A stretch of DNA of 64,000 bases from an uncultured Chthonomonas sp. (GCA_903859705.1 CAIONQ010000103.1:62001-126000), one strand, 5' to 3'. Positions 43,536 to 56,116 are shown, counted from the stretch's first letter. Program-made: numbers and translations. Notes: generated by a model from the letters alone, not told the origin.

Positions 43536-43757
43536 ATGGCTGCAACACTGATTTCACACTGCAAAGATATAGAATGTGGCAATTGTGCTGCAGCTATCGT
43601 ACGGGCACTTGGCCGGGCCGATGGAGTAGCAGACGTACAGGTGAATGTTGACGAGAAGCAGGTAACCATACTGTACGACGAAGCACGCCTTACGCCAGCG
43701 ATGCTATACGGGCGATTGGAACTTGCTGGATTTAAGGCAGATGAAGCATCGGAATGA
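43536..43757 (+). CDS. HMA-domain copper-chaperone-like protein
   Basis: A 73-residue protein with the heavy-metal motif IECGNC (C-x2-C) near the N terminus. Like CopZ-type chaperones, it probably carries Cu(I) or a similar ion in the cytoplasm. ATG 43536 has GGAG 6 bases upstream. A TATAAT box at 43453-43458 is its probable -10. Its stop overlaps the next ATG (ATGA), so it is cotranscribed with the DUF3592 gene. Confidence 0.9.
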   Translation: MAATLISHCKDIECGNCAAAIVRALGRADGVADVQVNVDEKQVTILYDEARLTPAMLYGRLELAGFKADEASE

Positions 43758-44221
43758 AAATGAAACAGAGAACGCTTTTTACCTTTGCAAAGGTGCTACT
43801 TTGGCCTGCCATGATCGGCTGGATAGGTTTCGGCCTTTGGAACGGGTGTCGTGGTACATTTGAGCTTATAACGCTGAAGACAGCCGGGAAAGTTGCTCAG
43901 GCCCAGGTAACCGGTTATGAGCCACTTCCCAAGAGCTCGGGCGTGGGGTATGTTCACTATGCAATTCACATTGCTGGTGGCTCTATCGACAATCGTTTTC
44001 CATTGCCAGTGGCCCGATATACCGAGTATCCGATTGGAGCCGGGATAACGGTTACTTATCTGCCAGAGCAACCGCATGTAATGCGCATGGGGAAAGTGGA
44101 TGCCGGGCGCGTGTCTACTACAGCACTCTTCGCAGTGGTTTTTGTTGCCCTTGGTTTTGCCGGTTTTGGTGTGCCGTTGTATGCCATTAATGCGGCTACG
44201 AAGAAACAGACTAACGCGTAA
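43754..44221 (+). CDS. DUF3592-like membrane protein
   Basis: A 155-residue protein with two transmembrane helices (about 10-30 and 120-145) that flank a small beta domain, including VHYAIHIAGGSIDNRF and VTYLPEQPHVMRMG. This is the DUF3592 arrangement. Its partner is unknown. It overlaps the HMA gene by four bases, and a second DUF3592 gene lies at 50532-51281. Confidence 0.85.
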   Translation: MKMKQRTLFTFAKVLLWPAMIGWIGFGLWNGCRGTFELITLKTAGKVAQAQVTGYEPLPKSSGVGYVHYAIHIAGGSIDNRFPLPVARYTEYPIGAGITVTYLPEQPHVMRMGKVDAGRVSTTALFAVVFVALGFAGFGVPLYAINAATKKQTNA

Positions 44222-44253
44222 CTGATATGCAGATGGAGAGGCAGGAATCTGGC

Positions 44254-45000
44254 ATGACGACTGAACTACTAAGCGGCAAAGTTGCGGCGATAACGGGTGG
44301 CTCCCGCGGGATTGGCGCGGCTATCTGCAGAAGATATGCCCGCGAAGGAGCCGCCGTTGCAATCTGCTACAGTTCCAACACGGGTGCAGCGCATAATATG
44401 GCGGCTGAAATTGTTGCCACAGGTGGAGTTGCCAGAGTTTTTCAGGCAGACTTAACTGATTCTGGGGCTGTTGAAAGCATGTTTGCAAGTATCCGCGAGG
44501 CATTCGGCAAGTTGGATATACTGGTGAACAATGCCGGGGTAGCTGAATTTTTACCGCTAGCCGCGGGTGGCCCAGAGCACTTTGACAGAATATTTAGTGT
44601 AAACGTGCGTGGTTTGTATCTATGTACCAGAGCAGCGGTACCAATGATGGCGGCTGGCGGGCACGTGATTAACATCAGCAGTGGTGCGGCAAGGGCGGGC
44701 GGTGCTAACGCAAGTGTGTATGCCGCCTCGAAGGCTGCGGTTGAGGCTATGACTGCCTGCCTTGCAACAGAACTTGGGCATTCTGGCATAACTGTGAATT
44801 GCATTTCGCCGGGAATTACCCGCACAGATATGCTTGCACAGGCTGTTCCTGCAGAAATTCAGGCAATGCTTGAAAAACAGACTCCCCTTGGAAGAGTGGG
44901 GGAGCCTGAAGACATTGCTGACGTGGCAGCATTTTTAGCATCCAGCGATGCTCGTTGGATAACAGGGCAAACTATTGCGGCTTCTGGCGGACTAAAATAG
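44254..45000 (+). CDS. SDR-family oxidoreductase (FabG-like)
   Basis: A 248-residue NAD(P)(H)-dependent short-chain dehydrogenase. The cofactor loop is TGGSRGIG, followed by NNAG; the catalytic Ser-Tyr-Lys set is in NISSGAAR and YAASK, and PG motifs follow. Similar to FabG, but substrate is not known. I start at ATG 44254 with AGGA 7 bases upstream; the frame extends upstream to ATG 44227 and 44233 without better support. Ends 11 bases from the convergent cyclase gene. Confidence 0.93.
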   Translation: MTTELLSGKVAAITGGSRGIGAAICRRYAREGAAVAICYSSNTGAAHNMAAEIVATGGVARVFQADLTDSGAVESMFASIREAFGKLDILVNNAGVAEFLPLAAGGPEHFDRIFSVNVRGLYLCTRAAVPMMAAGGHVINISSGAARAGGANASVYAASKAAVEAMTACLATELGHSGITVNCISPGITRTDMLAQAVPAEIQAMLEKQTPLGRVGEPEDIADVAAFLASSDARWITGQTIAASGGLK

Positions 45001-45011
45001 GGCGGAGCCGG

Positions 45012-46694
45012 TTAGACGGTGAGATGTTTTCGCAAGTAATTCTCATACAATTTGCACCGAATGATTGCTGCCGAGGCCCCCTCACCAGAAACAATTCCTG
45101 TGCTTCGAAGTCTGTAAAACTCATCCGCACTTTGAATAGGTTTCCCATCAAGCACCTGCCTCACGGCAAGGCTCAGCGCATGATCCTGAGACATCGTAAT
45201 CAGAATACGCCGTAAGTGATCAGAATAGATGCCTTCATCTCGATCAGACATCTCCACAAAGTTTTGCATTGGCATCGGATGGAGACTCAGTTCGTCTAAC
45301 CCTCTTCTAACCAGATAGGGGTGGCCACTGAGCAACGAATGAAACAGTGCAATATCTGGAGTCGACTTTATTGGGGATCCATAACGCCCATTGAGGTCTG
45401 CAGTTTGTTGTAGTGTGAAATCATGCAGAGAAAGCCTGGTACCCACGTTAAATGGAGACTGGTTTAGATCTCGAATAAATAGATGTGCCTCCGTTGCGTA
45501 GGCAATCACCAGGGTTAGGCGCGACCAGGGGCCGGTGGGATCTAATGCTCGCTTGTTATGCCATGATCGAAACAAGCCAAATACTTCACTGCCGTAATCG
45601 CATGTGAAAAGCCTGTCTACTTCGTCTAAGCCCCATACAATAGGTTCCTCAATTTGAGAGAATACAGCTTTACGCAGGTAGCGCTCCAGGTTCATGTTGG
45701 GGCCGCGTTCCGGGTTCCAGAGGTCTCCGGGCGCTGTATCCAGATCCAGCTGATCGCACAGTATTTCGGCAAGCGTAAAGAATAGCGCATTTGCGCTGGC
45801 CAGGTGGCTTGCGTTCAAAGTTTGGAAATCCGTTAGAACTACTCTGGAGCCAAGTTGCCTCGCCTGCTGAAGGCCACGTGCCAGCAAAGACGTCTTTCCC
45901 ATCTGCCTGGCACCTTTAACCAACACAATGCTATCCTTGCGAGCGATTGCCGTACGGAACTCTATATCTGTGGTGCGCTCAACATAAAATACAGAGTTTA
46001 GAGGTACTGCCCCACCAACCGGTTCAAGTTGATCTCGTGAGATACTTGGCGAGCCCAAATCGTAGTCAGAGGATGTTCGTACCTCTGTCCCAAAATTTGG
46101 TACTTGAGAGTTCAAACTTTGCGTACCAGGAGCAGTAAGTGGCATTTTGCTTCCTGTATTTAAGTTGCTAAACCTGTAGATGTGTAGCCGAGTTCCGTGT
46201 TTAACAGTACACTCGCCCAAATCCTTAAGGTGGGGTGCCCAGGAATCAAACTGAGCAAGGTCTTCTGCATAGCGGGCACTTAGCAATATATGCCCCGCAT
46301 TTCCACAATCCATCACGCGCTGTGCAATGTTAATGCCGCTTCCGCTAACATTGTCTTTGCCATTGATATCAGGCGTTCTGGAAACAGGGCCACTGTGAAT
46401 TCCCATGCGAATATGAACGCTGGCATCCAGAGCGAGGGCCTCTGTAATTTCAACTGCACATTGAATAGGCGCAATGGGGTCTCTAAAGAACACCAGTGCC
46501 ATGCCATCGCCTGTATCCAGGCGAATTAAGTCTCCACGGGCCTCTCCACGCTCAAACTCCGCAGTGTGCCGTACAATTTCACGCAAAGTTCGTGCTTCAC
46601 GTGCCTGCTCTTCCATTGAGAGCAATGAATAGCCGACGATGTCTAGAAACAGTACATGGGCTATCTCTGCCGCAATTCTGGTTTGCTGATCCAT
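45012..46694 (-). CDS. Class III nucleotide cyclase fused to AAA-like P-loop NTPase
   Basis: A 560-residue protein. The N-terminal class III cyclase domain (about 10-185) has metal-binding D18 in [10 protein letters not shown]63 in DTGDG, and transition-state N122 and R126 in GINIAQRV, so it should be active; the purine-specificity residues are not canonical, so cAMP or cGMP is open. After a linker, an AAA-like (AAA_35/STAND-type) domain has Walker [10 protein letters not shown] (about 260-268) and Walker [11 protein letters not shown] (about 352-361). No transmembrane helix. ATG 46694 is one base behind the stop of the WD40 protein, with GGGAG upstream, so they form one unit. Confidence 0.92.
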
Positions 46695-46695
46695 A

Positions 46696-49600
46696 TCAAT
46701 TCGCTCCCGGAATTCTTGTGGCAGGGCGTACAGATCTGCGGTCTGGCTGGCGTGCCCATACTTTAACGGTGTCATCTGCACTGCACGTAACAATCTTATT
46801 ACCGTCTGCGGAAAACAGGCATTTAAGAACCACGTTATCGTGGCCCTTCAGTGTGAGTACTTCTCGCCCGGTTTGCGTGTCCCATACTCGGGCTGTTTTA
46901 TCGGCGCTTCCGGTAACCAACCTGCGGCCATCCGGAGAGAACGCAATAGAGTAAAGAGAGTTAGCATGCCCACGCAGCTCTCTAATAATCTTTCCTGTAT
47001 GCGCATCCCATATGCGGGCGGTGTTGTCTCCGCTGCCAGTTTGATCGGCCTCTGTGCCAGCCAATCGGCCGCCATCTGGAGACCAACAGATGCCCGTTAC
47101 AAACGAGGCAGCAGCATCCTCTCCCGATTCTCGGGGGCAGGCACGCCACATCTTTTGAAGTGCCCCCGTAGCGGAATCAAACACTCTCACCTGGTTATCC
47201 GCTCCGCCGCATGCAATCCATTTGCCATCTGGTGAATACGCAGCATCCATAATGATGGCAGAGTTCTTAAGCAGCGTGTGGCGCAATGTGCCGTTTTCTG
47301 TGTTTAGCACAATCAGCCCGGTGGTTTGCGGTGCACCCATAGAGCCAACGCCGGCGCAAATACGGGCACCGTCTGGTGAGAAGGATAAGCAAGAAATAGG
47401 AGCGGGGCCGGTATGTACCACCAGCCTCTCATGCCTTGTGCGAGTATCCATAATGTGTACCGCACCGGCAGCATCACCGGCAGCAAGGGTTGTGCCGTCC
47501 TTTGCAAGTGCTATGGCTGTTATGAATGACTTCTGGGCCAGCAGTGTTGCAGTTTGCAGGCCGGTGAGCGTGCTCCACTGGCGAACAGTGCCATCATTGC
47601 CACCACTGTAAACAGTTACGCCGTCATTAGCTATTGCCATATCTGTAACTGTACCAAGGTGCCCGGCCAGAGTAACCGTATCCCTGCGCTTTGAGGCATC
47701 CCAAATTCGGGCGGTATTATCGAAACTACCGGTAACCAGCCTTCTGCCATCTGGAGTAAAACAGACTGCCGAAACCGGATCTGTGTGCCCTTTAAGCGTG
47801 AGGATGTGCTGGCCAGTGGCGGCGTTGGCAATGCGCACTGTGTTATCGTAACCAGCCGTTGCAAGGCGGGCCCCATCAGGAGAAAATGCCACACCGCCAA
47901 CAGCCTGCGTATGCCCGGTAATGGTGTACATTGTCTGGTCGCTCTCAATGTCCCACACACGGGCTGTATTATCGTAAGAACCAGATGCAAGCTGCCGGCT
48001 ATCCGGTGAAAAAGCCACGCTGATAACGGGTTGTTTGTGCCCTTGAAGGATGTGCGCTTCTCGGCCCGAATCCGCATCCCAGATACGAATTCTGCCATCG
48101 GATCCTCCTGCAGCGATCGAGTGGCCGTCGGCAGAGTAAGCTACGCCGCTAAATGTGGACATCGAAACAAAGCGGGAATAAACCGGCGTGCCGGTGCGCA
48201 CATTCCACATTGAAACCGCAGCAGATTTGCGCTGATCGCCGCCACCCGAAACTAGTCGGCTTCCATCAGGGCTAAACGCAATAGATAGAATTGCATTTCC
48301 TGGTGTATGGATGTTGGCAACTATTTTAACAGGATTGTGCAAATCGATTACCTGGATAGATTGTGCTACTGAGCCTACTGCAACGAGGTTTCCATCTGTG
48401 CTGATTGCCAGGCTGGTAATAGGGCCACCAACCTGAACAGGAACGCGTTCGATTTCTCTGCCAAGTAGAATGTCCCAGATGCGAACTGTTCTATCGAAGC
48501 CAGCGGTAGCAATTCGCCTGCCATCCCGGAAACTTGCCACGGATGTTACATGGTTTGTGTGGCCACGTAAAGTCAAGAGATCCAGGCTGCAGCCGCGAAG
48601 CCAATACCCCCATTCAAATCCATGAACTGCTCCGCTGTCTGATTCCCTCAAAAGGTCTAGCACGCGGGAAATATTGTTATTTTCATAGGCTTGCTGAGCC
48701 AGGTTCATATTTGCAATGTAGAGCAGGCGGTTTGAATTGGCCGCCTCTTCCGCGGCATTTTTGCGGGCAGACAGCGCTCCATTCAGTGCAGATTGCCGTT
48801 CATCCAGCGCAATCTTGCGCTGTGTTGCAAGTTCCAGCACTTTCTTGTTGGCAGCCAGAACCTCCTTCTCGTTGCGATCTGCACGGCTGGCTTCATCAAA
48901 TGCAGCTATGGCGCTGTCTCGCGCTTTCTGCTCGCTGTCCCAGGCTTCAATCTGAGCATGCTTCGCCAGCGAAGCTTCTTTCTCGGCCTGTTTCTGGTTG
49001 AGCGCAGATTCCTTACTTGCGGCTTGCGCAATCTGGCGCAGATGGTTTTCCCTGTCAAAATTACGTTGGGCATTAAATGCGAGAAATGCAGCGGCGAGTA
49101 CAACACCGGCAGAAACGAGTGCTGATCTCAGCAAACCGGTCCGGTAGGCGCGTTGCTGCCGTCTGAGCTCGGCGTGCGGCATGTGAGTAAGGATCCACTC
49201 CGCATTAAATACGGTGCTGTAGATACGGTTGCGTACTTTGAGCAAGCCATCTTCAACCCGCACAACTCCGGAGAGGCGCAGTACGGGCACTACAGGGTTA
49301 GTTTCATCATCGGCCACGCGCTTGCCAATAAGGACATCTCGGTAGAGCTCGAGCATCGCCGCAATATCCACCTCGGATTTCAACAGCCGATTATGAACAA
49401 ACGCAAGGTTGTCATCGCTTTCGCGGGCTGTTTTCGTGAGAAACAACTCTTCACAAAAGCGATCAATATCTGAATTACCCAGAACCAGATTTTCATCGGC
49501 TCTGTCTGACAGGGCTTTGCATAGGCGCTGTGTCAGGTAAGGATGCCCGCCGGTCCAGTACAGAACTCTATCCAGTACGGCATTGCCGCCAGGTAAGCCA

Positions 49601-50301
49601 GAGGCAAGCGGGCCTGCTTCTGCCACTGAGAAATCTGTAACAACAATGCGCCGCCCAATATTGAAAGGGCTGATGCGGCTTTCCATGATCAAATCTGCCG
49701 GGTTAGCAACGCCCAGTAAACAAAATGTAATTCGATTAAACAGCGGATCCTGAGTGCGGCGGTTGTAGCACTCCCTGATTCCCGCAAAGAACTCATCAGC
49801 AGAAAAGGGTAGGCTTCTAACCGCGTCGATTTCATCAACAAAAATAACGAGGCGTCCATCACGCTCGTTGAGGCGGCTTAAAACCACTCGCCTCAAAACT
49901 TCCATCCACCGTTGCATTGGCCCGAGCCGCGCAGTGCTTCGCCAACAATCCTCAAGCTCATCTTCAAGATCTAACTGCTCGCCAAGCAGTGTCAGCATGC
50001 CAAGATACCATTGCTCAGGCGAGAGGTTCTGGCCAACTGCAGTAAGGTCGATGATCGCTATCCGTACGCCCTCTGCTATAAGGCGATTTGCGGTGCGGAT
50101 CATCAACGATGACTTGCCCATCTGCCGTGTATTCAGTACATAGCAGAACTCGGAGCTACTGAGACTTTCATAGAGATCGGTATCTGCCCTACGTACCACG
50201 TACGATGGGGCGCCAGAAGGCAAAGTGCCTCCCGTAACATAAAACTGATCGGGCACAATTGAGGGATTCCCATTATTGTCTGCTGTAGGTGTAGTAGCCA
50301 T
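46696..50301 (-). CDS. STAND-like AAA, transmembrane, 14x WD40 protein
   Basis: A 1201-residue protein. The N-terminal AAA-like NTPase has Walker A-type [10 protein letters not shown] (57-66) and Walker B IFVDEID (153-159) and a winged-helix-like region to about 375. One transmembrane helix lies at about 392-412; a coiled coil (about 415-540, Ala/Lys/Glu-rich) leads into fourteen WD40 blades (about 575-1195), enough for two seven-bladed propellers, with RIWD/VWD ends. The WD40s probably sit outside and sense a ligand, passing the signal to the NTPase. Its NTPase is a clear paralog of the one in the next gene. No strong ribosome site precedes the ATG. Confidence 0.92.
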
Positions 50302-50531
50302 ACTATATAGAGGGACGCGCGGTTCAGTAGTTCGTTACGGCTCTGTTATCGTCTCTGGTGTGCTCCACGAGGCGACTGAGATGAAATTCACAAGCCGGTA
50401 ATCGTAGAAAGTGATTTAGATTCTATCTTGCATGCATTCTATACCGGATGGCTGAACGCGTTCGGGGTAGAATTGACGGGCTCGCTGCGAAAATTGGCAC
50501 GGCGGGCAGTTACTCACCGAGCACTGAAAGT

Positions 50532-51281
50532 ATGAAGATGTCAGAGAAACCATCCACCGTAACGTCTGTAGAAGCCGAGCCAGATGCGCTACGGGCCGAC
50601 CCGGTAAAAAGCCGTCGCGTTGGAATAACCGTATCCGTGTTCCTGATGCTGATATCGGTTGCAATTACTTCGACGTTTATTGCAATCGGAGGTTCGCTTG
50701 CCGTACGTAATCTGATGGCAACGGGCTGGAATCAAACCAGAGGGTTGTTGATTACGGCGAAAGCCGAGCATGCTGGCGGCAAGAAAGAAAACCCACTTGT
50801 GCCTTTGGTTCGGTATCAGTTTACAGTAAACGGTAAAACGTACACAAGTGATCACTGGTCGCCGGCAGGCGATGGTCCAGATCTCCTGGGACAGATTGAG
50901 CGTTTGAAAGCCGCATCCCCACTGATTGTGCACTACAACCCGCGTAATCCGGCTGATTCTGCCCTAGTAATGCCATCTATGCACCTCGGCTATCTGCCGC
51001 TTACCCTTGGAATTGGCCTGTTCTTCATACTTGTAATAGCCGTAAGTGGGGGAACGCTGTTTGCTGCCATTTACCCAGAGGTGGCAGCTTTAGAGGACAC
51101 ACCTGCACGCAGAGCCATAAAGCTAAGTTTGCGGATAGGGTTTGTTCTAACATTAACAAGCCTTACTGGCCTGGTTACCCTGCTAACGGGTTTGCAGGGA
51201 GGATGGTGGCAATGGATAATTTCTGTGGTAGGTGTGCTTGTTGTTGTGAACCGAAGCCGTAAATCGGACTTAAAACGATAG
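50532..51281 (+). CDS. DUF3592-like membrane protein
   Basis: A 249-residue protein. A Pro/Ser-rich N-terminal tail, then transmembrane helices at about 30-55, 150-175 and near the C terminus, with a beta domain containing VPLVRYQFTVNGKTYTSD and IVHYNPRNP. This is the DUF3592 fold. The start is uncertain: ATG 50532, ATG 50538 and the upstream ATG 50448 all lack a good ribosome site. Divergent from the WD40 gene, and upstream of the macroglobulin. Confidence 0.78.
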   Translation: MKMSEKPSTVTSVEAEPDALRADPVKSRRVGITVSVFLMLISVAITSTFIAIGGSLAVRNLMATGWNQTRGLLITAKAEHAGGKKENPLVPLVRYQFTVNGKTYTSDHWSPAGDGPDLLGQIERLKAASPLIVHYNPRNPADSALVMPSMHLGYLPLTLGIGLFFILVIAVSGGTLFAAIYPEVAALEDTPARRAIKLSLRIGFVLTLTSLTGLVTLLTGLQGGWWQWIISVVGVLVVVNRSRKSDLKR

Positions 51282-51375: not shown

Positions 51376-51418
51376 GTTTACACGCCCCTAATTTCTTTTG
51401 GCCAACGGAGGTAATGTG

Positions 51419-54400
51419 ATGCAGGCTTGGAATCTGAGACACTTGGCGTTGCGCTTTCTCATCTATGCAGAGGCGGCAGCATTCTGTTTGATAACGGCCG
51501 GAATGGCATTGGGACAGGATGCCGCCAGAAGCTCGAAGGCTGGCGATGGATTTGATGTTTCACCGTTGGAAGTACGAGTGCTTGGACAGCGATCCTGGTT
51601 TTCTGGCGGCCCTGCAAGTTTGCGTGTTGTGGTAACTAACCACAATTCGGGGCAGCCCTTGCTGGCGCGGGTAAATTTACGCCTGGAGCAGGTGACTGGC
51701 ACACAAGTTAAGGGTAATGCCATACCGCTTTATGCGGGCACAACAAATTCTGCCGGTACGCTCGATGCAACTTTTAAAGTGCCTGGAGTTCCGGTAGGAT
51801 CTTATCGGCTTACTGTTGCAACAAAAAGTCCGGCTGGTTCAGATACCATTGAAGAAAATCTACAGATACAGCGCAGTGCCGAGGTTTTGTTCACGTGTGA
51901 TAAGCCTATCTATCAGCCGTCTCAAACGATTCATATGCGGGCTCTTGGCCTTGATATGGCTGCCAGAATTGCGCTTTCAAATCAGCCAGTAACATTTGAG
52001 GCTGAGGATGCACGCGGCAATAAAGTGTTTAAGAAGCATGCGGTACTTTCGCAACATGGCGTGGCTTCGGCAGATTTTGAGTTGGCAGATGAAGTTAATA
52101 TGGGCGTATACACGCTCCGAGCTATCCTGCCAACCAATACCGTTGAGAAGAAAATTAACGTTAGCAGATACGTGCTGCCGCGATACAAAGCGACCCTAAC
52201 TTTTGGAAAGCCCTACTACTTGCCCGGTGAAACGGTGCATGCAACCTTAACTGCAAACTACTTTTTCGGCAAGCCAGTGAGCGGGGGAAAGGCAAAAGTC
52301 GTTGCCAGTACACCGGTAATTGGACTGGAACAGATCGCTACTCTTGAGGGCGTTACCGATGCTGCCGGAAAATACGCTTTTCAATTTAAGTTACCGGATT
52401 CGTTTGTAGGCCAGCCGTTTGAGCAGGGCAAAGGTGCCGTGCTGCTCGCCGCCACACTTAAGGATGCCGCGGACCATACACAAGAGGTATCTGCATCTGC
52501 CCCGGTAGTAAAAGACCCGATTTCTGTGTTGGCGGTTCCTGAACACAAAGGCATCGTTAAAGGCATACCGAATCGGATATATGTTGCTGTGGCATCACCA
52601 GACGGCGCGCCAACAGTAAATGCCACCGTTGATGTGCGGGTACAACCTCTTCCTGCCCCGGGCACGCTCAAGCCGGTTCCTTACCGAGGCGTCAAAACCG
52701 ATGCTCTGGGGCTGGCTGCAGTTGATTTTACACCTACCTCGGATAGTGCCAGGGTTATGATCGACGTTACGGATGTTTCGGGACACCATGCTTATCGTGA
52801 GATCGATATTGCCGGGGCCAATGTGGATCAGAATTTGATTTTGCGTGCCGATAAATCTCTCGCGAAAGTGGGAGAGATTTTGAGCCTAACTGCAATGAGT
52901 CCCTCGGCATCAGGCACTCTGTTTCTGGATGTCATTCGAAATAAACAAACAATCCTAACAGTTGCGAAGCCATTTTCACAGGGCAAGGCAGATGCACGGA
53001 TAACAATTACGCCCGATATGGCGGGCACGCTTGAACTAAACGCATACCGTATTCTTCCTAACGAGCAGATAGTTCGGGATACACGCACAGTGTTGGTAAC
53101 GAACGCAACCGACCTTGTTATCGATGCCGCTCTGGATCACAAAGAGTATAAGCCAGGTGGCGAAGCTACCATACAATTTACTGTAACCGATGGCGCTAAA
53201 CACCCGGTTCTGGCAGCACTAGGTATAGCTATTGTAGATGAAAGTGTGTTTGGCCTTTCTGAGATGCACCCGGGACTTGAGAAGGTGTACTTCAATCTCG
53301 AAAAAGAGTTGATGACTCCGAAATATGAGATTCACGGGCTGAGGCCAACGTTCTTAATGGAGCCGCAATCCGGGCCTATCACAATCAAGAATCGTGAGAT
53401 GGCAGCAGCTGTCCTCCTTGCTAGCGCACCCGTTTCCGATGCTTACCAGGTAAATGCAAATAGCTTCCAAACACGGTGGATGCACGTGCAAGAGAAGCTA
53501 GTTGCACGCATGGTAAATGCCTGCCAGAGCATTTCAAGCGCGGCAGATAAGTACCGCCGGGATACTGGCTCGATCCTTGCAGAAGGGGATGGCCTGCATG
53601 TGCTTGTGGAACGTGGCTACCTTACCGAGAGCCAGCTATTGGACCCATGGAGCACCCCTTATAAGATTTCAAACGTGCAGAGCGGATTTCAGTACTTCAC
53701 AATCGCGAGTGCTGGCCCGGATCGAAAGTGGGGCACAGCAGACGACACTGCAAACGTGAATCGTTACGGCACTATGGGGCGTTTTGGAGGCCAGGGTTTT
53801 GGTGGCAGAATGCGTGGTGGTGGATTTGCTGGCGGTGGTGCTGCTGCTGAATTTGGGGCTGTAAGGGCTCTCGGCGGCAAAGCAATGATGTTAGAGGATA
53901 GGTTTGCGGAACCAATGGCAGCGGCAAGGGCAATGGATTTTAACCGTGCTACAGCATTGAAAAAAGACGTGAAACTTGATGCAGCCGGAGGTTCCAGTGG
54001 TGCCGCAGAACCGCGAGTTCGGCAATATTTCCCTGAAACCATGATGTGGCGACCAGAGCTAATAACAGATGAGCAGGGCAAGGCCCGCCTTACTGTTCCG
54101 CTGGCAGATTCAATAACAACCTGGCGCGTTAGTGTGCTGGGGAATACAATTGGCAGCATGGTTGGCAGCGCATCATTGCCGATAAAAGTGTTCCAGGATT
54201 TCTTCGTTGAGCTGGATATGCCGCTGACGCTAACTCAGAACGATCATGTTGAAGTGCCAGTGGCGATATACAACTATCTTAACAGCTCGCAAGATGTAAC
54301 TGTTAAGCTTGAGCCAGAAGCCTGGTATCAGCTTGATGGAAGCCCGCTTCGGACTGTGCATCTTGCCGCTGGCGAAGTTACATCCGTTCACTTCCCGCTA

Positions 54401-56116
54401 AAGGTATCGGCAATCGGCAGACACACACTAACTGCCACGGCGCGTGGTACTCGCCTTTCTGATGCGGTGCGCCGACCCATTGAGGTTACTCCTGATGGTA
54501 AAGAGCAACTGCAAACAATAAACGACGTATTAAGCGGAACTTCAGACCGGCAGATTACCGTTCCTGCAAATGCTATCGCAGGTGCATCGACTCTCTGGCT
54601 CAAGGTATATCCTGGCAGCTTTAGTCAGTTGATTGAGGGACTGGATGGCATTTTACGCATGCCGAATGGATGCTTTGAGCAGACAAGCTCCACTACTTAT
54701 CCCAACATCCTCGTACTCGACTATCTCAAGACCACAAAGAAGGTAAATCCTGAGATACAGATGAAGGCCGAACAGTACATCAATATCGGATACCAACGGC
54801 TGGTTACTTTTGAATGCAAGAATGGTGGGTTCAGCTGGTTCGGTAACGAGCCCGCGCATCAAGTGCTCACGGCTTATGGTCTGCTGGAGTTCAGTGACAT
54901 GGCAAAGGTTCACGATGTGGACCCCGGCGTAATTTCACGCACGAGCAACTGGCTAGCTGGTAGGCAAAGTAAAGATGGAAGCTGGAATGAAACCGGGCAG
55001 GGGATTGCTGAAGGAATTATCAACCGGCAAACGGGCAGCTTGCGGACTACCGCTTACACTGCGTGGGCACTGGCAGAAAGTGGTTTCGCTGGCCCCCAGC
55101 TTGCGAATGGTGTGCGCTACGTTATAGATCACCTGGACGGGGCCAAAGATCCGTACACACTGGCTGTAATCCTAAATCTGCTCGCCAAAACAGACCGTAA
55201 CGGCTCGGTTACATCTACGGTGGCTCAAAAGCTTATTGCACTTGCGCACACTACGGATAAGACAGCGTTCTGGCAAACAGATACCGCAACGTTTACCGGT
55301 GCGCGTTCGATTGGAGCTGATCTTGAAACCACAGGGTTGGCAGCTTATGCCCTGGTAAAATGGGGTAAGAACTCTACCTTTACAAACAAGGTGCTTTCTT
55401 ACCTCGTTCAGAGCAAGGATGCTTTTGGTACGTGGCAATCTACGCAGGGTACGGTGTGGGCACTTAAGGCACTCATCTACGCCAGCCATGGAGGTTCCGG
55501 CGGCGGTAAAGGTACCCTTACGGTTACTGCAAATGGGAAACCGGCTGCTCAGGTTAATATTACTGAAGATGACAGTGAATTGATGAGGCAGATCGATCTG
55601 CGCGAGCTGATTAAGCCAGGTGCGAACACCATCCATCTGGATTTCAAGGGCGACGGATCGCCTCAATATCAGATTGTGGCTAGAAGCTATGTTCCGTGGG
55701 CCAATAATCCAGGTGGAGCGCCGCCATTCCAGCCACTTTCAATTGCAGTGAATTACGATCAACGTACCCTTGCTCAAAACGACCTCGCAGGCGTTACCGT
55801 AACAGTTCACAACAATACAGAGAGAATTGCAGAGATGCCTCTGATTGACATCGGGATTCCACCAGGATTTACTGTGGAGCCCGAGCTGTTGGATGACCTT
55901 GTGAAGGAGAAGAAGATTAGCAAGTACACAATTTCTGGCAGGCAGCTTATTGTGTATCTCGAAAAGATTGGTCCTACCGAGACCATAGATGTGCGATACA
56001 AGATCCGTGCAAAGTACCCAATTAGGGCAAAGACCCCGCTAAGCAAGGTATATCCGTACTACAATCCTGAAAAGGCCTCTGTATCGGCGCCGCAGCTGCT
56101 TACCGTAACCCGGTAA
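51419..56116 (+). CDS. Secreted bacterial alpha-2-macroglobulin with pseudopilin-like insert
   Basis: A 1565-residue secreted protein with a signal peptide (cut near MALGQ). Macroglobulin-like beta domains (about 35-640) are followed by a bait-like region (about 680-860), a macroglobulin domain (about 875-960), the thioester domain with intact C1085-F-E-Q (GCFEQTSS) and a C-terminal receptor-like domain. The bait-like region contains about 85 residues with DPWSTPYK and SAGPDRKWGTADD, as in GspG-type pseudopilins, then Gly-rich sequence. The thioester should trap attacking proteases. ATG 51419 is 6 bases behind GGAGGT. Unlike ECAM, there is no lipobox and no PBP1C neighbour. Confidence 0.93.
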   Translation: MQAWNLRHLALRFLIYAEAAAFCLITAGMALGQDAARSSKAGDGFDVSPLEVRVLGQRSWFSGGPASLRVVVTNHNSGQPLLARVNLRLEQVTGTQVKGNAIPLYAGTTNSAGTLDATFKVPGVPVGSYRLTVATKSPAGSDTIEENLQIQRSAEVLFTCDKPIYQPSQTIHMRALGLDMAARIALSNQPVTFEAEDARGNKVFKKHAVLSQHGVASADFELADEVNMGVYTLRAILPTNTVEKKINVSRYVLPRYKATLTFGKPYYLPGETVHATLTANYFFGKPVSGGKAKVVASTPVIGLEQIATLEGVTDAAGKYAFQFKLPDSFVGQPFEQGKGAVLLAATLKDAADHTQEVSASAPVVKDPISVLAVPEHKGIVKGIPNRIYVAVASPDGAPTVNATVDVRVQPLPAPGTLKPVPYRGVKTDALGLAAVDFTPTSDSARVMIDVTDVSGHHAYREIDIAGANVDQNLILRADKSLAKVGEILSLTAMSPSASGTLFLDVIRNKQTILTVAKPFSQGKADARITITPDMAGTLELNAYRILPNEQIVRDTRTVLVTNATDLVIDAALDHKEYKPGGEATIQFTVTDGAKHPVLAALGIAIVDESVFGLSEMHPGLEKVYFNLEKELMTPKYEIHGLRPTFLMEPQSGPITIKNREMAAAVLLASAPVSDAYQVNANSFQTRWMHVQEKLVARMVNACQSISSAADKYRRDTGSILAEGDGLHVLVERGYLTESQLLDPWSTPYKISNVQSGFQYFTIASAGPDRKWGTADDTANVNRYGTMGRFGGQGFGGRMRGGGFAGGGAAAEFGAVRALGGKAMMLEDRFAEPMAAARAMDFNRATALKKDVKLDAAGGSSGAAEPRVRQYFPETMMWRPELITDEQGKARLTVPLADSITTWRVSVLGNTIGSMVGSASLPIKVFQDFFVELDMPLTLTQNDHVEVPVAIYNYLNSSQDVTVKLEPEAWYQLDGSPLRTVHLAAGEVTSVHFPLKVSAIGRHTLTATARGTRLSDAVRRPIEVTPDGKEQLQTINDVLSGTSDRQITVPANAIAGASTLWLKVYPGSFSQLIEGLDGILRMPNGCFEQTSSTTYPNILVLDYLKTTKKVNPEIQMKAEQYINIGYQRLVTFECKNGGFSWFGNEPAHQVLTAYGLLEFSDMAKVHDVDPGVISRTSNWLAGRQSKDGSWNETGQGIAEGIINRQTGSLRTTAYTAWALAESGFAGPQLANGVRYVIDHLDGAKDPYTLAVILNLLAKTDRNGSVTSTVAQKLIALAHTTDKTAFWQTDTATFTGARSIGADLETTGLAAYALVKWGKNSTFTNKVLSYLVQSKDAFGTWQSTQGTVWALKALIYASHGGSGGGKGTLTVTANGKPAAQVNITEDDSELMRQIDLRELIKPGANTIHLDFKGDGSPQYQIVARSYVPWANNPGGAPPFQPLSIAVNYDQRTLAQNDLAGVTVTVHNNTERIAEMPLIDIGIPPGFTVEPELLDDLVKEKKISKYTISGRQLIVYLEKIGPTETIDVRYKIRAKYPIRAKTPLSKVYPYYNPEKASVSAPQLLTVTR

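Follow-up and report, generated by a model that had tools for sequence, protein, structure and literature searches.

In proteins of the STAND/NLR-like type, a single cytosolic chain holds both effector and sensor. Avs, bNACHT, CED-4/APAF-1 and plant NLRs share the logic of an effector, an NTPase and a repeat sensor, the last being formed by WD40 repeats in APAF-1. AfsR- and MalT-type regulators place a SARP or LuxR-type DNA-binding domain beside a STAND NTPase, on a single chain with its own sensor and without a membrane partner. In Planctomycetes, transmembrane Ser/Thr kinases with extracytoplasmic WD40 repeats join a cytosolic signalling domain through one transmembrane helix (TM) to a variable ectodomain. 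Pycsar is a two-gene unit in which the class III-type cyclase PycC is accompanied by PycTIR or PycTM, without an NTPase or a receptor. In the excerpts of Kaur et al. 2020 consulted, conflict systems including the MoxR-vWA ternary systems and EACC1 are built on an NTPase core with swappable cNMP cyclase, TIR, kinase and protease outputs, some of them membrane-associated (PMC7159879), and in excerpts of three conflict-system surveys such output domains are attached to other cores (PMC7159879, PMC8195603, PMC10907252).

Here we analyse two adjacent genes, B and S, from the window, a 64,000-nucleotide stretch of DNA from an uncultured Chthonomonas sp. The pair shares with Avs, bNACHT, CED-4/APAF-1 and plant NLRs the effector-NTPase-repeat sensor arrangement, the predicted fold, the P-loop and the GxP motif, and with APAF-1 the WD40 repeats, but it is divided between two chains, each with a paralogous NTPase, and the sensor chain usually spans the membrane. 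DNA-binding domains sit beside the NTPase, as in AfsR and MalT, in S from Chloroflexota and in five or more of the S proteins that this genome encodes. B shares cytosolic domain, single TM and variable ectodomain with the planctomycete kinases, except that an NTPase replaces the kinase and the output sits on the partner S. With Pycsar the pair has in common the two-gene form, a class III-type cyclase and a non-canonical base pocket, but not an adjacent cNMP-receptor effector. Excerpts of Kaur et al. 2020 describe MoxR-vWA with VMAP/iSTAND, GTPases or caspases, whereas the pair comprises two paralogous STAND-like NTPases; the name AAA_35 does not occur in those excerpts (PMC7159879), and no description of the S/B pair was found in the excerpts of the three surveys (PMC7159879, PMC8195603, PMC10907252). 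In the open-access literature searched, no paper names PF14516 (AAA_35), and combining AAA_35 or PF14516 with WD40 or TIR returned nothing relevant. The pair joins the STAND/NLR-like proteins, and no published description of it was found in open literature, in line with the sequence-only reading, which knew of no such system. We consider it probable, at roughly 0.6, that B and S form a split transmembrane STAND-type receptor switched by assembly, with B as sensor-relay and S as output partner.

Gene layout and domain architecture

The two genes and their features, numbered from the first letter of the window, are as follows.

46696..50301, minus strand: gene B, AAA_35 - TM - coiled coil - WD40, 1201 aa, stop included
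49201..50244, minus strand: AAA_35 / STAND-like NTPase of B, residues ~20-367, with RQMGKSS, IFVDEID, [ST]PFN and GGHP
49078..49134, minus strand: single transmembrane helix of B, residues 390-408, K/R-rich on the NTPase side
48607..49077, minus strand: coiled coil of B between membrane and propeller, residues 409-565
46732..48579, minus strand: WD40 repeats of B, residues ~575-1190, predicted extracytoplasmic
46704..46708, minus strand: GGGAG, putative ribosome-binding site of S, found by eye
46695..46695, minus strand: one-base gap between the stop of B and the start of S
45012..46694, minus strand: gene S, class III cyclase - AAA_35, 560 aa, stop included
46161..46673, minus strand: class III nucleotide cyclase domain of S, residues 8-178, with D18, D63, N122 and R126, and L59 and N115
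46029..46154, minus strand: disordered linker of S, residues 181-222, at the position of a TIR domain in the sister species
45024..46019, minus strand: AAA_35 / STAND-like NTPase of S, residues 226-557

Both genes start with ATG and run from 50301 to 46696 (B) and from 46694 to 45012 (S). An upstream TTG, the start of the mechanical open reading frame, was set aside for S because the ATG at 46694 is the best start. The TGA of B occupies 46698-46696 and is followed, after the single base 46695, by the ATG of S, exactly as the sequence-only reading had placed the second gene; the junction reads ...GGGAGCGAATTGATATG. This one-base gap makes translational coupling likely, and GGGAG, seen by eye within the end of B 9 nt upstream of the S ATG, is a possible ribosome-binding site. 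The genes flanking the pair encode an SDR protein and a DUF3592 protein.

The pair is conserved in synteny in a sister species at 70% / 56% identity. Together with the E-values and the many homologues, this synteny excludes chance, and the B/S observation is confirmed. The whole neighbourhood is syntenic as well, and the suggestion that the pair might lie in a variable island was rejected for this locus.

Two subfamilies of STAND-like NTPase

Both proteins match AAA_35 well above the Pfam cut-off of 27 bits: S at residues 228-555 with 264 bits (E 1.7e-78), B with 80 bits. The paralogy proposed for their AAA-like NTPases is borne out, in that both belong to PF14516 and fall into two distinct subfamilies, the S subfamily with a C-terminal AAA_35 behind a variable N-terminal output and the B subfamily with an N-terminal AAA_35 before a variable C-terminal part. 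P-loops are intact in both, and each has Walker A and Walker B (RQMGKSS and IFVDEID in B). The GxP motif reads GHPYL in S and GGHPYL in B, and is kept in 76/78 S and 51/51 B relatives; Walker A, Walker B, [ST]PFN and GxP are conserved in most or all members of both subfamilies.

A sequence search of solved structures with AAA_35 returned chance KaiC matches only, and the relationship emerged from a fold search. The predicted NTPase models of S and B match the archaeal STAND structures 2qen/2fna over their full length (Z 18.8-21.7), followed by ORC/CDC6, CED-4, plant NLRs and Avs, and they show the ORC/CDC6-like AAA+ core, lid and winged helix of a STAND protein. The models thus support classing both AAA_35 domains as STAND-like NTPases.

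Distribution and matched divergence of the pairs

Relatives were drawn from genome collections and sorted by local profiles into S and B. The genome of the window encodes 14 AAA_35 domains, which form seven pairs, 7/7 adjacent. The sequence-only reading had proposed looking for the pair in other genomes; S/B pairs are spread over at least eight phyla, with a B within 1.5 kb in 55/65 S that have adequate flanks. Within the phylum the family is patchy (57-62 of 291 genomes). S precedes B in most pairs and B precedes S in about ten, the window pair among them, and, going by the listed coordinates, one family of the phylum has the two genes on opposite strands, tail-to-tail within about 4 kb (for example G156, G148, G125 and G097). 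Plasmids carry pairs in Abditibacteriota (TIR-AAA_35 with AAA_35-PAS-GAF), Chloroflexota (kinase-AAA_35-LuxR with AAA_35-WD40) and Cyanobacteriota (CHAT-AAA_35 with AAA_35-GUN4), with gaps of 4-12 bp or an 8-bp overlap in pairs from these three phyla. Since adjacency persists through changes of orientation, function rather than mere co-transcription appears to hold the genes together.

Distances among S and among B are closely correlated over 51 adjacent pairs (Mantel r=0.928; best of 2000 permutations 0.391). The same holds for the seven paralogous pairs of the window genome (r=0.858, rank 3 of 5040 matchings), a correlation that organism phylogeny cannot explain, since all seven reside in a single genome. 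This matched divergence shows that the pairs are inherited as units, which does not by itself prove contact; we infer contact between S and B with moderate confidence.

It is unlikely that the two proteins work independently, with each NTPase homo-oligomeric, and are neighbours only through joint copying. STAND proteins usually do homo-oligomerise, and 10 S with good flanks (about 15%), many of them from Verrucomicrobiota, have no B nearby, as such independence would allow; against it stand the adjacency maintained over several orientations and phyla, the one-base gap and the matched divergence within one genome.

Interchangeable output domains

The N-terminal outputs of S are diverse. Among 79 S, a sample whose proportions are biased because it was seeded with the window S protein, we counted TIR (25), kinase-TIR (15), cyclase-TIR (12), kinase (6), SARP-type DNA-binding (6), TIR-TIR (5), cyclase alone (2, the window S and L120), cyclase-kinase-TIR (2), kinase-cyclase-TIR (1) and wHTH (1), the others being unassigned or truncated. 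The SARP-type count denotes a SARP-like N-terminal region, with Pfam BTAD itself found in L116 and L058, and Pfam checks on example S proteins also revealed CHAT-TIR. On a quick tree of the S NTPase, in which many forks are weak, outputs changed at least 9 times for cyclase, 11 for kinase and 5 for TIR.

Such exchange reaches down to the genus. At the syntenic locus of the sister species (G001), S is a cyclase-TIR-AAA_35 protein, and because a short disordered linker takes the place of TIR in the window S, the domain was either lost there or gained in the sister. TIR domains of S keep a Glu at the catalytic position; the window genome contains no TIR_2 domain, and at least five of its seven pairs have SARP-type outputs. 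The sequences support a pair of AAA_35 NTPases as the invariant core, with the cyclase as one of several interchangeable outputs.

A class III cyclase with a non-canonical base pocket

The cyclase match of S is weak by Pfam (21 bits, just below the cut-off, E 2e-4). Its identity is nevertheless confirmed by the predicted structure (mean pLDDT 90.9), which aligns with solved class III cyclases at Z about 20 and rmsd 2.0-2.4 over 154-168 residues, and by an alignment of a 12-member family. The class III fold and the metal and transition-state residues attributed to S from sequence alone were both recovered, D18 and D63 (metal) and N122 and R126 (transition state) being invariant in 12/12 well-preserved members, the window S included.

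The base-selecting positions differ from the canonical ones. Placed by sequence spacing relative to Ma1120 (N115 as R126 minus 11), they appear to hold Leu/Ile across the family where Lys is canonical (L59 in S) and Asn where Asp is canonical (N115). On this placement S has neither the Lys and Asp of canonical adenylate cyclases nor, with Leu59 at that position, the Glu that replaces Lys in guanylate cyclases. By sequence the domain falls outside both canonical types, adenylate and guanylate cyclase, and its product is not predictable from the base pocket. In Pycsar cyclases, too, the pocket is not the canonical one, but the residues are others (PMC11224242).

These replacements, and the degenerate cyclase domains of several relatives (L028, L031 and L061), would suit a nucleotide-binding regulatory domain with no enzyme activity. 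We regard that reading as improbable, given the invariance of the metal Asp pair and of the transition-state Asn and Arg in all 12 well-preserved members; the conservation of Leu/Ile and Asn in the pocket points to a defined substrate. The genome encodes one CRP-like cNMP-binding protein, a possible receiver of the cyclic nucleotide.

Topology and ectodomain of B

The description of B as a membrane-anchored AAA/coiled-coil/WD40 protein holds, with one hydrophobic TM at residues 390-408 between NTPase and coiled coil. Its proposed 14 blades agree with the length of the WD40 region (about 615 aa, fitting about 14), although Pfam called 11 repeats. A hydrophobic helix, nearly always a single one, soon follows AAA_35 in 48/53 B, and Lys/Arg are richer on the NTPase side of the TM in 39 B and poorer in 4. 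Because of this positive-inside pattern and the cytosolic NTPase, the sensor part should lie outside, and the sequences argue strongly for a topology in which the WD40 region of B is predicted to lie beyond the membrane.

The C-terminal parts exchanged among B include WD40, TPR, PEGA, CarboxypepD_reg, FGE-sulfatase and DUF2092; of these, PEGA and CarboxypepD_reg often occur in extracytoplasmic proteins. Some B have no clear TM, and some carry PAS/GAF or GUN4, which are usually cytosolic, so a transmembrane-receptor topology is not universal in the subfamily. In favour of a WD40 region outside, another WD40 protein of the genome, with the same pre-propeller module, has by eye a signal peptide-like start ending AKA-Q.

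The initial view of a WD40-STAND sensor coupled to a cyclase thus stands as regards the STAND-like NTPases and changes in two respects: the cyclase is interchangeable around an invariant AAA_35 pair, and the WD40 region, predicted outside, makes B a candidate receptor spanning the membrane, not a cytosolic sensor.

Defence or regulation

The pair had been taken for a signalling or defence unit. Signalling is supported; a defence role is not borne out at this locus. In a defence system of the abortive-infection or cell-death kind, B would sense invasion and the cyclic nucleotide made by S would, in the manner of Pycsar, trigger a separate toxic effector. Several properties of the family fit: other S carry TIR or CHAT, which are typical suicide effectors, the distribution among close genomes is patchy, plasmids carry some pairs, and the STAND fold resembles that of Avs and NLRs. 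No PADLOC 2.0 model matched the pair, however, which gave only weak P-loop matches with none to PycC or the Pycsar family; other S proteins gave single-domain matches only. When all genes lying within 6 kb of S/B pairs were clustered, no dedicated third component and no recurrent effector emerged, although effector genes had been suggested as neighbours to look for, and beside the window pair, in the positions of the SDR and DUF3592 genes, no PycTIR or PycTM effector was found. The synteny with the sister species, the absence of TIR_2 from the window genome and its mostly SARP-type DNA-binding outputs also speak against defence, as does the occurrence of a relative in only 1 of 2.9 million viral contigs, on which count a viral origin was rejected.

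We therefore think defence an unlikely role for the window locus and possible for the TIR and CHAT versions. More weight falls on regulation or general external sensing, regulation being indicated by the mostly SARP-type DNA-binding outputs of the other S of the genome.

A probable split receptor switched by assembly

In the split transmembrane receptor that we favour, B would span the membrane once, a variable ectodomain, here WD40, sensing something outside, with its cytosolic AAA_35 NTPase as the relay. S would be its cognate partner in the cytosol, joining an output domain to a second AAA_35 NTPase. On a signal, NTP would be bound or exchanged, and the two NTPases would then assemble as hetero- or co-oligomers and gather the output domains of S, turning on a cyclase dimer that makes a cyclic nucleotide. 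Related S proteins, with their TIR, kinase, CHAT or DNA-binding outputs, could be switched through proximity in the same way. A class III cyclase needs two catalytic domains to form its active sites, which lie between them, and self-association is a common switch for TIRs, kinases, CHAT proteases and DNA-binding domains, so that NTPase assembly could be the switch common to all outputs. We infer this assembly-driven activation, as well as ligand and product.

More tentatively, and at slightly less than even odds, the pairs may constitute a 'STAND two-component' family, in which a TM sensor NTPase and a soluble output NTPase form specific cognate pairs that pass the signal through the membrane by hetero-oligomerising, with ectodomains and outputs swapped repeatedly, as in histidine kinases and response regulators; the cyclase form may make an unusual cyclic nucleotide.

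In the open literature searched, PF14516 is a large family to which no function has been assigned. If the split-receptor reading is true, a transmembrane two-protein branch would be added to STAND/NLR signalling, known mainly from single cytosolic proteins. One NTPase pair would then connect external sensing with outputs of the TIR, kinase, cyclase, protease and transcription kinds, and the natural cognate pairs would offer a ready set for testing the specificity of paired NTPases.

Genomic context and related cyclases

Synteny with the sister species is kept for the SDR and alpha-2-macroglobulin-like genes of the window and for both membrane-type genes that flank the S/B unit:
43754-44221, small membrane-type protein, on one side of the unit
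44227-45000, SDR gene
50448-51281, small membrane-type protein (DUF3592), on the other side
51398-56116, alpha-2-macroglobulin-like protein, 1572 aa

The window's genome (G000) encodes two more class III cyclases, in 907- and 615-aa frames, with architectures differing from that of S:
G000:C103:46952-47497
G000:C77:120387-120863

At loci of relatives (L154, L155 (L161)), the unit's cyclase subfamily occurs without AAA_35 in a single-chain cyclase-TM-ectodomain protein, whose gene adjoins an isocitrate/isopropylmalate dehydrogenase-like gene.

Variation among S/B pairs

Another WD40 protein of the window's genome (L146, G000:C99:30637-30834) has a signal peptide-like start and shares the pre-propeller module with B, which together suggest that B's propeller type is exported. 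In Methylococcaceae, a B (L077:7626-9779) has an FGE-sulfatase (C-lectin-like) ectodomain; diversity-generating retroelements elsewhere often target folds of this kind. Broken S and B copies with frame changes, at G006:C145 (L127) and L083 in relatives, are signs that some pairs decay.

One relative's locus, L122, has S genes on both sides of B: one is of SARP type and divergent with respect to B, and the other, downstream of B, is a cyclase-TIR S:
L122:6648-14983, S-B-S arrangement
L122:8263-12873, B receptor

Here a single B receptor may serve two outputs.
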